64,000 bases of DNA from assembly GCF_005876855.1 (NCBI RefSeq), contig NZ_QLAE01000002.1, forward strand, positions 1 to 64,000, given 5' to 3'. Positions 15,034 through 18,126 of this stretch are shown in pieces. The notes under the pieces are model-generated. The model saw nothing but the letters and a program-made list of their open reading frames with translations. It had not been told where the DNA came from and did not search any database. The position numbers and the translations under genes were made by a program. The stretch's first letter is position 1. Every line of letters starts with the position of its first letter. The stretch comes from Stutzerimonas nosocomialis (lineage in GTDB: Bacteria; Pseudomonadota; Gammaproteobacteria; Pseudomonadales; Pseudomonadaceae).

Positions 15034-15213
15034 GACGATCGGTGATCTGGAAGGCGTGCCAGTTTAACCCCGGCGGCGGGTACGCGGGCGAGCCGTTGAC
15101 GGAGGTCAATCCGCCGCCAATGAACCCACGGTCAGGCGTGCGGCGAGGTCTATACTGCGGATGCCTGCCGATTTGTAACTGGACGTGTACTCGCAGCGAG
15201 ACCCTGTTTGCCG

Positions 15214-16839
15214 ATGGATATTCTCTACCTGATTTTCCTGCTGCTGCTGGCAGTGGGCGCCAGTCGCATCCTCGCCAATCTCATTCCGTTGCCCCTGCCG
15301 ATCCTGCAGATAGTGCTTGGCAGCCTCCTTGCGATGCCGCCGTTCGGCATGCAGATCGAATTGCATCCGGAAATCTTCATGTTGTTGTTCATCCCGCCGT
15401 TGTTGTTCTACGACGGCTGGAAGATTCCCAAGCGCGAATTCACCGAACATGGCGTTGAGATGACCGCCATGTCGCTGGTGCTGGTACTGCTGGTGGTCGT
15501 GGTCGCCGGCTACTTCATCCATTGGCTGCTGCCGGCGATACCGCTGGGCGCGAGCTTCGCCCTGGCCGCGATCCTCTCGCCCACCGACGCGCTGGCGGTC
15601 ATCGCCATCGGCCAGGGGCGCCTGCCGAGGCACATGGCGCACCAGCTCGAAGGCGAGGCGATGATGAACGACGCCACGGGCCTGGTTTCCTTCAAGTTCG
15701 CCCTGGCGGCGGCCATCAGCGGCACCTTTTCGCTGGTCTCGGTGGCCGGCGAGTTCGTGATCGTCGCCCTTGGCGGCCTGCTGATCGGCGCCGGCCTGAG
15801 CTGGTCGGTGGGCAGGCTCAAGCGCTGGATGACCGCGCGCGGCCTGTTCGATCCGGCGGTGTACGTGGTGATGATCCTGCTGCTGCCGTTCGCCGCGTTC
15901 TACCTGGCCGAGCATGCGGGCATGTCCGGCATCCTCTCGGCGGTGGCCGCCGGCATGGTGCAGAGCCGCGTCGACATGCTGCCGGTCAAGACCAGCACGC
16001 GAATCCTCAACCGCAGCATCTGGGAAATGCTCGACTTCAGCTTCAACGGCCTGGTGTTCCTGCTGCTGGGCCTGCAGTTCCCGCGCATCGTCGGCCGCGT
16101 CTGGGAGGCGTCCGCCCACCAGGCCTACGACATGCCGACGCTGCTGTTCAGCGCCGTGGCGATCATGGCGCTGCTGCTGGCGATGCGCTTCGCCTTCGTC
16201 TACGCCTACCACTGGAGCGAAATGCGCGTGCGCCGCCTGCGGGGCGCACCGGTGGAGGACAAGTCGCTCGGCCTGTTCTCGGCGCTGAGCGCGGTGGCGG
16301 GCGTGCGGGGCGCCATCACCCTGGCCGGGGTCCTGTCGGTGCCCCTGATGATCGGCGATACGCCTTTTCCCGGGCGCGACCTGATGATCTTCCTTGCCGC
16401 GGCGGTGATCATCCTCTCGCTGCTGGTCGGCGCGCTCGGTGTGCCCTTTTTCCTCAAGCGGATGCCACACAACGATTTCGAAGAGCACGAGCGCGAACTG
16501 CAGAAGGCCAGGCGCCAGGCGGCGCAGGCGGCGGTCGGCTGGCTGGAGAACTGGCGGCAGGAGAATGCCAGCAGCGACGTCGACCGCTCGGCGCTGCAGA
16601 GCGAGGTCGCCGAGCGGGTGATCGAGTCCTACCGCCAGGACCTCGAAGCGCTGATGGACCGGGAAGACATGGCAAACCAGGCGCGGCGGACCCGGACGCT
16701 GGAAATCGAACTGCGCCTGCAGGCGATCGCGGTGCAGCGCAAGGAGCTGCTGCGCATGCGCAAACGCCATGACATCGACGAGCAGATGCTCCAGGCGCTG
16801 ATCCGCGACCTGGATTATGACGAGGCGGCGCTACGCTGA
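15214..16839 (+). CDS. Na+/H+ antiporter, CPA1 family
   Basis: A 541-residue inner-membrane cation:proton antiporter with about 12-13 helices in the first 420 residues. It carries the CPA1 hallmark SPTDALAVIAIGQ near residue 125 (the essential aspartate) and a conserved EGEAMMNDATGLV motif. The last 120 residues form a charged, probably coiled-coil cytoplasmic tail. ATG 15214 was preferred over the TTG two codons earlier; the ribosome binding site is weak in both cases. The gene ends about 170 bp before the sRNA locus and has no obvious terminator of its own. Confidence 0.88.
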   Translation: MDILYLIFLLLLAVGASRILANLIPLPLPILQIVLGSLLAMPPFGMQIELHPEIFMLLFIPPLLFYDGWKIPKREFTEHGVEMTAMSLVLVLLVVVVAGYFIHWLLPAIPLGASFALAAILSPTDALAVIAIGQGRLPRHMAHQLEGEAMMNDATGLVSFKFALAAAISGTFSLVSVAGEFVIVALGGLLIGAGLSWSVGRLKRWMTARGLFDPAVYVVMILLLPFAAFYLAEHAGMSGILSAVAAGMVQSRVDMLPVKTSTRILNRSIWEMLDFSFNGLVFLLLGLQFPRIVGRVWEASAHQAYDMPTLLFSAVAIMALLLAMRFAFVYAYHWSEMRVRRLRGAPVEDKSLGLFSALSAVAGVRGAITLAGVLSVPLMIGDTPFPGRDLMIFLAAAVIILSLLVGALGVPFFLKRMPHNDFEEHERELQKARRQAAQAAVGWLENWRQENASSDVDRSALQSEVAERVIESYRQDLEALMDREDMANQARRTRTLEIELRLQAIAVQRKELLRMRKRHDIDEQMLQALIRDLDYDEAALR

Positions 16840-16859
16840 AACAGCTGAACCGATTCAGT

Positions 16860-16926
16860 TGTTACCGCATCTTGCGCCGATCGGGCGCGAGGTGAGTGTT
16901 ACGGTAACGGATCGCCCAAGGTTACA
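16860..16926 (+). promoter_or_regulatory. Cluster of GTTAC/GTAAC half-sites, candidate CbrB activator region
   Basis: TGTTAC at 16860-16865, the palindrome GTTAC-G-GTAAC at 16898-16908 and GGTTACAG at 16920-16927 lie 60-125 bp upstream of a -24/-12 promoter. That is the usual distance of an enhancer-type site for a sigma54 activator. In Pseudomonas, CbrB activates crcZ-type promoters from upstream repeats; that this is its site is inferred from position and repetition. Confidence 0.55.
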
Positions 16927-16983
16927 GCCTGATCCGACCTGAGTTTTTCGCTAACCGGTTGAAAACAAAGGATTTCACGTTTT

Positions 16984-16999
16984 TGGCACGCCCTATGCT
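16984..16999 (+). promoter_or_regulatory. Sigma54 (-24/-12) promoter of the Crc-decoy sRNA
   Basis: TGGCACG-N4-ATGCT contains the invariant GG (16985-16986) and GC (16997-16998) ten bases apart, as in RpoN promoters. Transcription would start about 12 bp later near 17010, exactly where the A-rich motif series begins. Confidence 0.75.
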
Positions 17000-17009
17000 T
17001 TCTGTATGG

Positions 17010-17310
17010 CACAACAAAAATAATAAGCGGCAAAAACCAAACAAGAACGATACGTATCGGCTCTCGCACAATAACGACAAGACGGCAGAGACGAAGCTAA
17101 CCGATTCTTTTGGAGAGGAAACGCCAGCGGGCATGACCCGGCGGCCAGTCGAGAATAAAAAACTGCACGAGCAGCTCGGTGACTGGCGGTAGATGGCGCT
17201 TCAGCGACCAAAAGCATCCGTTATCTACTGGGCCGAGATGGCCTCCACCACTTGGTGGGCAGAAAAACAAGAGCGTTCAAACTCAAGGGAGCTTCGGCTC
17301 CCTTGAGTCG
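17010..17310 (+). ncRNA. CrcZ/CrcY/CrcX-type sRNA, decoy for Hfq/Crc
   Basis: An approximately 300-nt untranslated RNA predicted from a sigma54 promoter to a strong hairpin. It contains AAnAAnAA motifs at 17013-17026 (three overlapping copies in AACAAAAATAATAA), 17040-17047, 17154-17161 and 17263-17270, plus a near match at 17070-17077. CrcZ-family RNAs carry about five or six such motifs, are driven by CbrB and RpoN, and titrate Hfq/Crc to relieve catabolite repression. It is not next to cbrAB here, so it is more likely the second copy (CrcY/CrcX type) than CrcZ itself. Short frames across it have no ribosome binding site. The region is markedly AT-richer than its flanks. Confidence 0.8.
17281..17308 (+). 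terminator. Hairpin ending the Crc-decoy sRNA
   Basis: A perfect 12-bp stem (ACTCAAGGGAGC / GCTCCCTTGAGT) with a UUCG tetraloop. The following bases (CGTTCTGG) give only a short U-containing tract, so it may act both as 3' end and as protective structure. Confidence 0.65.
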
Positions 17311-17619
17311 TTCTGGTGTCCGGGATTTATGGGCGCTCTGCAGGCAGCCGCGAATTGCGGGCTTGCGCTGCCATCCGGCGGTGGTCGGCGTCGCCTGGTC
17401 ACGGCGGCCTGTACGCGATCGCATGAATCTGGCCAGCTGCGCAACACGGGTGGGCGCTTCAACGGAATACGGACCCAGCCTCCGAAAACTTCCTTCCTGC
17501 AATTGCCCTTGATCCAAGCGAGCCTTCATTGAAAGGCTCGCCCGCAAGCGGTGTGGCAGCGCTGCCTTCTTAAGTCGTCCGGTTGGAAGCCCGGCGAATG
17601 GATCGCTGAAAACGACGCC
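17311..17619. other. Spacer between sRNA and tRNA-Arg, no supported gene
   Basis: No credible coding frame is present. One inverted repeat, GCGAGCCTT-N6-AAGGCTCGC at 17519-17542, could form a 9-bp hairpin but lacks a T tract. Minus-strand open frames through here run antisense into the sRNA and look like chance readings. Confidence 0.4.
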
Positions 17620-17653
17620 AAAAAAAAGCCCCAGGCGCTTTACCTGGGGCTTT
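17620..17653 (-). terminator. Rho-independent terminator of tRNA-Arg
   Basis: On the minus strand AAAGCCCCAGG-N-CCTGGGGCTTTTTTTT forms a GC-rich stem followed by eight T residues, starting a few bases after the tRNA CCA end. Confidence 0.85.
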
Positions 17654-17657
17654 GATA

Positions 17658-17734
17658 TGGCGCATCCGGCGGGATTCGAACCCACGACCCCTGCCTTCGG
17701 AGGGCAGTACTCTATCCAGCTGAGCTACGGATGC
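17658..17734 (-). tRNA. tRNA-Arg (anticodon CCG)
   Basis: A complete 77-nt cloverleaf is readable on the minus strand. It has acceptor stem GCATCCG/CGGATGC with discriminator G and encoded CCA, a D arm in AGCTCAGCTGGATAGAG, anticodon arm CTGCC-CTCCGAA-GGCAG and T arm with GGTTCGAATCC. The loop CTCCGAA gives anticodon CCG, reading the Arg codon CGG, which is common in this GC-rich genome. No integrase or duplicated att site is visible next to it. Confidence 0.95.
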
Positions 17735-18126
17735 GTTGCGGGCCGCATGATACGCATCTCGCTCGCGGCCGTCCATGGCGCTTCGGCGGCTGCCGGGGGG
17801 CGTGGACGGAGGGGGTGAGTGCGGGGCCCGATGATGAGGCGAAAGCAGCTGGAGCCTCGGGTGGCGTCCGAGCGACTGCTGGCGGCCGAAGGCCGCATCA
17901 CGCCCGGCTATGGGCTGTTAATTTTATCGAACATGTTGTTGCGGTTGCGGGCGCATGGACCTAGCATCCGTTTGAGATTTCAAACGCCACCTGTTCTATC
18001 AGGAACCCCGCAGGCCTGCCGCTCTCTGATCCGGGACGAGGCTGCGCCGCGGCGCTTCGCTCCCTTTCCGCGGCCCCAGGGCCAGGCCCATAACCGGCGC
18101 GCGACGCCGGCTCGAAGGAGACTGCC
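17735..18126. other. Upstream region of gabD
   Basis: About 390 bp without a supported gene. It holds the tRNA promoter on one side and, 140-158 bp before gabD, the palindrome CGTTTGA-GATT-TCAAACG (17969-17986). AT-rich sequence at 17917-17940 may belong to a promoter. Nothing else was recognised. Confidence 0.4.
17969..17986. promoter_or_regulatory. Palindromic candidate operator upstream of gabD
   Basis: CGTTTGA-GATT-TCAAACG has perfect 7-bp arms and is the only strong dyad in the gabD upstream region. A regulator for it cannot be named from this window. Confidence 0.35.

Follow-up and report, generated by a model that had tools for sequence, protein, structure and literature searches.

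The window, a stretch of 64,000 nucleotides from Stutzerimonas nosocomialis, contains a CrcZ-family small RNA gene on the + strand at 17011 to 17329, preceded by a gene encoding a CPA1 Na+/H+ antiporter (15208 to 16839, +; TIGR00831, 393 bits against 280) and followed by a tRNA-Arg (CCG) gene (17658 to 17734, −). A sequence-only reading of this DNA had placed a CrcZ-type RNA between these two neighbours, both of which were verified, and had suggested a covariance-model search as a check on the family assignment. Rfam cmscan returned a match to RF01675 (CrcZ) of 171.3 bits, compared with a gathering score of 95 bits, that covers positions 1 to 398 of the 398 in the model. The limits given here for the gene are those of this match; the proposed RNA gene is real, but the match runs slightly past the end at 17310 suggested earlier, to 17329, and the mature 3′ end would lie near 17308 to 17312.

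The predicted fold of 17011 to 17325 is more stable than 100 shuffles (z-score −3.7). Six AAnAAnAA motifs, starting at 17013, 17016, 17019, 17040, 17154 and 17263, form the four blocks that had been described from the letters. The first block (17013 to 17026, +) holds three overlapping motifs in 14 nt and has a predicted unpaired fraction of 0.90–0.98; the second (17040 to 17047, +) is predicted to be unpaired about half the time (0.54), the third (17154 to 17161, +) at 0.98 and the fourth (17263 to 17274, +), which lies directly before the terminal hairpin, at 0.85. The blocks thus range from 0.54 to 0.98, compared with 0.43 for the RNA overall. Dinucleotide shuffles contain a mean of 0.57 such motifs, and six or more were obtained in 3 of 2000. 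The hairpin, a perfect 12-bp stem (17281–17292 paired with 17297–17308, +) closed by the TTCG (UUCG in the RNA) loop recognised previously, is of the terminator type. It is not followed by a clear T run, a feature shared with the canonical crcZ of the same genome, which likewise lacks a clean one, and it was not among the terminators listed by a generic terminator scan. GACGnAGCUAACnGAUUCUUUUGGAG, which is strongly conserved across the family, is not an A-rich site (positions 17090–17115 and 17208–17226 of the window are concerned); in a fold of four sequences, one of them entered without 11 nt of its 5′ end, it pairs largely with the distant CCAAAAGCAUCCGUUAUCU.

Promoter elements and putative partners in the same genome

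The GTTAC/GTAAC repeats and the dedicated σ54 element noted earlier could both be located upstream of the RNA. A CbrB-type forward subsite, F1 (TGTTAC, 16860–16865, +), begins at −151 from the Rfam 5′ end, the antiporter gene ending 20 nt before it. An extra TGTTAC (16897–16902, +; −114), conserved in the sister genome, lies one base before a reverse subsite GTAACG (16904–16909, +; −107) that we take as R2, and a further GTTAC is found at 16921–16925 (+; −90, or −89 in the sister genome). The −24/−12 element TGGCACGCCCTATGC (16984–16998, +; −26), with the spacing GG-N10-GC, is the sole match to TGGCAC-N5/6-TGC on either strand of the window. According to the text available from PMC6296734, CbrB subsites have the forward form TGTTAC and the reverse form GTAACA, R2 of the P. 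putida crcZ being GTAACg, and CbrB contacts at least two subsites with variable spacing, none of the three being essential.

Comparison with 115 family copies indicates that the −24/−12 element, F1 and R2 stand in the usual register. GGCA-N8-GC occurs at −29 to −22 in 114 copies (exactly at −26 in 102), TGTTAC at −155 to −145 in 98, and GTAAC in the R2 register, at −111 to −103, in 80. The R1 subsite, GTAAC at −133 to −112, is found in 106 of the 115 and is missing from the window copy, which has F1, R2 and the extra TGTTAC at −114. A composite pattern, TGTTAC..GTAAC..GGCA-N7-TGC, composed after both promoters were known so as to fit both, has two occurrences in the 4,755,882-base genome, one before the window RNA and one before the canonical crcZ, and its backwards control has none. 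The promoter register and this genome-wide rarity fit control by CbrB and σ54, and CbrB would act at the window promoter through these subsites. The possibility of a chance match was ruled out by the Rfam score, the shuffles and the genome-wide promoter pattern.

The same genome encodes one Hfq, one RpoN and a Crc protein (matching the PDB catabolite repression control protein at E 4.5e-162). The search for a cbrB-side copy, suggested with the idea that the window RNA is an unlinked second member, was successful: a canonical crcZ lies between cbrB and pcnB (RF01675, 321.7 bits). Since this place is occupied by another copy, the window copy, which is not there, is a second member of the family unlinked to cbrAB.

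Distribution of second copies among relatives

All 56 genomes of the genus contain an RF01675 match and two matches are listed in 30 of them, although in one of these (G037) a single copy seems to be split between contigs, and the genus-wide search used stricter filters with which weak matches may be lost. Among the 56, a second copy behind the antiporter gene is found only in the window genome and its sister (G002), which we take as Stutzerimonas azotifigens 115A1. The antiporter itself is present in 24 of the 56 at E 1e-50, three of the 24 being only 40–42% identical. In blastn, the window-type RNA is found at 2 of the 24 antiporter loci, those of the window genome and its sister; at one further locus the match is limited to 14 bases (E 0.52), and cmscan, run on 13 of the 24 loci, finds no CrcZ. 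In another genome of the genus (G001), an RsmY small RNA (95.5 bits; L079:3182–3303, −) lies directly behind an antiporter relative of 72% identity, so that another regulatory RNA stands at the corresponding place, on the other strand. A DNA search of 398 genomes of the family gave, among the matches listed, 95% identity in the sister genome only, the remainder covering part of the query with at most 86% identity. An exact 29-base pattern searched in named genome contigs, where near relatives are possibly not covered, retrieved one record, that of S. azotifigens 115A1. As for a mobile origin, blastn of 16840–17335 against plasmid and phage records gave no match at E 1e-5.

We fetched 95 copy-bearing loci (29 from the genus, 38 Pseudomonas-type, from a genus that we take as Pseudomonas, and 28 from 12 other genera), and the antiporter occurs at the sister locus only. 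Names such as CrcY-like and CrcX-like are assigned here by gene context. The Pseudomonas-type loci have cbrB (14), an HMG-CoA lyase gene (13), a CrcX-like neighbour (8) or none of these (3). Other second copies in the genus number 27, of which 21 were fetched (those of G008, G017, G019, G020, G044 and G054 being left out). Neither the antiporter nor cbrB occurs in the flanks retrieved with these 21; an acyl-CoA dehydrogenase gene flanks 17 and a CoA-transferase gene 19, identified through profile matches below the NCBIfam naming cut-offs. In the window genome, its sister and six other genomes of the genus, no CrcZ was found around the closest acyl-CoA dehydrogenase homologue, which in the window genome and its sister may mark a different locus from the CrcY-like one since no CoA-transferase gene lies beside it.

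Gene context distinguishes the window copy from each of the named family members. P. stutzeri A1501 is reported to have CrcZ and CrcY (PMC6606865, in the text available), and P. syringae to have CrcZ, CrcY and CrcX (PMC8871633, likewise). With the CrcY of Pseudomonas and the CrcY-like copies of the genus, the window copy shares its status as an unlinked extra copy with the same type of promoter, but it lacks the neighbours typical of these, HMG-CoA lyase in the former and CoA-transferase and acyl-CoA dehydrogenase in the latter. The CrcX-like third copy of Pseudomonas-type genomes is similarly an unlinked family member, yet has other neighbours and does not form a supported group with the window copy in trees. 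Beyond the sister genome, none of the copies examined shares the chromosomal position of this putative CrcZ-type decoy. The family itself is already known, and we found no published mention of a copy in the S. nosocomialis/azotifigens lineage in the open-licence literature.

Copy number varies elsewhere in the family. A single-contig genome from another genus (G126; L227–L231) has five CrcZ-family copies, more than the three named members CrcZ, CrcY and CrcX; in the same genus, G064 and G102 have four each and G079 three. At L169, in a genome with 9% contamination, two copies lie in tandem 160 nt apart (G436:C1:6292288–6292664 and 6292825–6293200) and are followed by an acyl-CoA dehydrogenase gene. 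In four genomes of genus g6 (G060, G117, G131 and G145), second copies of 245–249 nt score 61–66 bits, below the Rfam cut-off, and may be either shortened members or relics.

Divergence and descent of the window copy

The window RNA resembles cbrB-linked CrcZ in its full-length model match, its σ54 element at −26, the register of F1 and R2, the core GACGnAGCUAACnGAUUCUUUUGGAG and the presence of A-rich blocks, and it ends in a UUCG hairpin of the same kind as that of its own canonical crcZ. Unlike CrcZ, it is not beside cbrB and has no R1 subsite, and its 319 nt fall 58 nt short of the length of its genome's canonical copy; 23 of the 24 cbrB-linked genus copies used measure 371–401 nt and one 277. 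Both the window copy and the sister copy have six motif sites in four blocks, compared with 13 sites in six blocks in the canonical crcZ of the window genome, whose block at 57–70 is broken in the window copy and one of whose two 3′ blocks (270–280 and 296–306) is missing from it. Four blocks or fewer are found in seven of the 115 family copies, the window and sister pair included.

Identity of the window copy to the CrcZ copies of the genus is 72–78%. After that of the sister copy, the 11 next-highest counts of identical positions belong to ten genus CrcZ copies and one CrcY-like copy, and the highest of them (242) is with a genus CrcZ. Trees were built from 86 and 115 rows, leaving out nine of the 29 cbrB-linked genus loci (L003–L031) and three loci cut by contig ends (L049, L053 and L054), and taking in part of the further copies listed in other genera. 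The pair forms a group of its own (100/100) on a long branch of 1.38 (86 rows) or 1.18 (115 rows) changes per column. The cbrB-linked CrcZ copies of the genus group without it (79/94 with 86 rows, 97/94 with 115), and so does the CrcY-like clade of the genus (100/100 with 86 rows, where all 21 fetched copies fall together, and 100/99 with 115). In the best 86-row tree the pair stands beside the Y and X copies plus two others with support of 58/0, and in the 115-row tree, whose bootstrap had not settled, it joins the cbrB-linked copy of another genus (L233; 68/73), a joining flagged by the program as long branches meeting. Seven AU tests of parentage gave p values of 0.105–0.505, and since none was rejected, both duplication of CrcZ and relocation of CrcY or CrcX are compatible with the data.

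Our tentative account of this divergence, which we hold at somewhat less than even confidence, is that the pair represents a separate lineage that arose by duplication and relocation behind the CPA1 antiporter gene in an ancestor of the window genome and S. azotifigens 115A1, evolved rapidly into a reduced decoy with four A-rich blocks and a changed layout of CbrB subsites, and was then kept by selection. We regard it as rather unlikely that the copy is instead, by descent, the previously described crcY or crcX at a new position and not the product of a separate crcZ duplication, a question of origin that is compatible with a decoy function. Such relocation draws on the AU tests, in which joining the pair to the CrcY-like clade of the genus (p 0.31) or to the Y and X copies of Pseudomonas-type genomes (p 0.40) was not rejected, on the placement beside Y and X, supported at only 58/0, and on the exclusion of the pair from the cbrB-linked genus copies. 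Grouping with the genus CrcZ is, however, equally allowed (p 0.50), the pair falls outside the CrcY-like clade in both trees, and ten of the 11 next-highest identity counts are with genus CrcZ. Moreover, other genus members that lack the copy beside acyl-CoA dehydrogenase also lack one behind the antiporter gene.

A putative auxiliary decoy maintained in two genomes

The window and sister genomes are 90.6% identical across the F to R sites, 95.5% in the −24/−12 region and 94.9% in the RNA, whereas the promoter spacer (16913–16980) is 55.9% identical and the downstream DNA (17326–17420) 40%. The antiporter genes are 94.3% identical overall and 87.1% at third codon positions. Past the terminator the genes differ: the window has tRNA-Arg and a succinate-semialdehyde dehydrogenase gene, while the sister has a gene for a hydrolase weakly resembling PHA depolymerase (below cut-off) and a gene that looks peptidase-like by eye, and no tRNA-Arg was found within about 22 kb downstream of its copy. 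These identities and the different downstream genes imply that the promoter and RNA have been kept as a unit beside a break in gene order. The contrast with the diverged spacer and downstream DNA, a footprint drawn from one pair of genomes, suggests that the promoter elements and the RNA are under selection; neither genome has lost the hairpin or any of the four A-rich blocks.

We consider it very likely, with a probability of roughly 0.9, that the region from 17011 to about 17310 encodes an auxiliary CrcZ-family decoy RNA for Hfq and Crc, induced by CbrB and σ54. On a poor carbon source, CbrB would occupy TGTTAC (16860) and GTAACG (16904) and from there activate σ54-RNA polymerase at the −24/−12 element at 16984. 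Through its four A-rich blocks, the resulting RNA would engage Hfq, together with Crc, at the distal face and titrate it away from catabolic mRNAs, supplementing the canonical CrcZ from the cbrB locus. Transcription of the window RNA, its dependence on CbrB and RpoN, its binding to Hfq and its relief of catabolite repression are all expected by analogy with the family; the 407-nt CrcZ of PAO1, with six A-rich stretches, is reported to bind and titrate Hfq via the distal face (PMC4063720, in the text available). Because its A-rich blocks are fewer and shorter than those of CrcZ, the window RNA is probably the weaker, auxiliary decoy.

It is improbable, in our estimation, that the RNA is instead specialised, whether by serving as a lower-capacity decoy under certain conditions or by arising in part from transcription that continues out of the antiporter gene, which would link it to salt or pH stress. 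The antiporter gene does end close to F1, no + strand terminator was found by the scan in 16700–17900, and read-through from cbrB into crcZ is reported in P. putida and A. vinelandii (in the available text of PMC8871633 and PMC6292655). The missing terminator is weak evidence since the same scan misses the hairpin of the window RNA itself, and the conserved promoter elements of the RNA argue that the window promoter matters. That the copy is a decaying relict of a CrcZ or CrcY duplicate, no longer working as a decoy, would agree with its 319-nt length, fewer motif blocks, missing R1 and long branch, but is very improbable given that the RNA, the −24/−12 element and the F to R sites are more alike than the spacer, the downstream DNA and the third codon positions of the antiporter gene, and that the blocks and hairpin persist in both genomes.

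As an auxiliary decoy, the window RNA would give a model of carbon-catabolite control in this Stutzerimonas lineage with two decoys, one of them naturally trimmed, with six motif sites compared with 13 in the canonical copy. If it does represent a separate lineage, its activation threshold or Hfq-binding capacity may differ from that of CrcZ, and it would provide a natural reduced decoy with which to measure how many sites titration needs.
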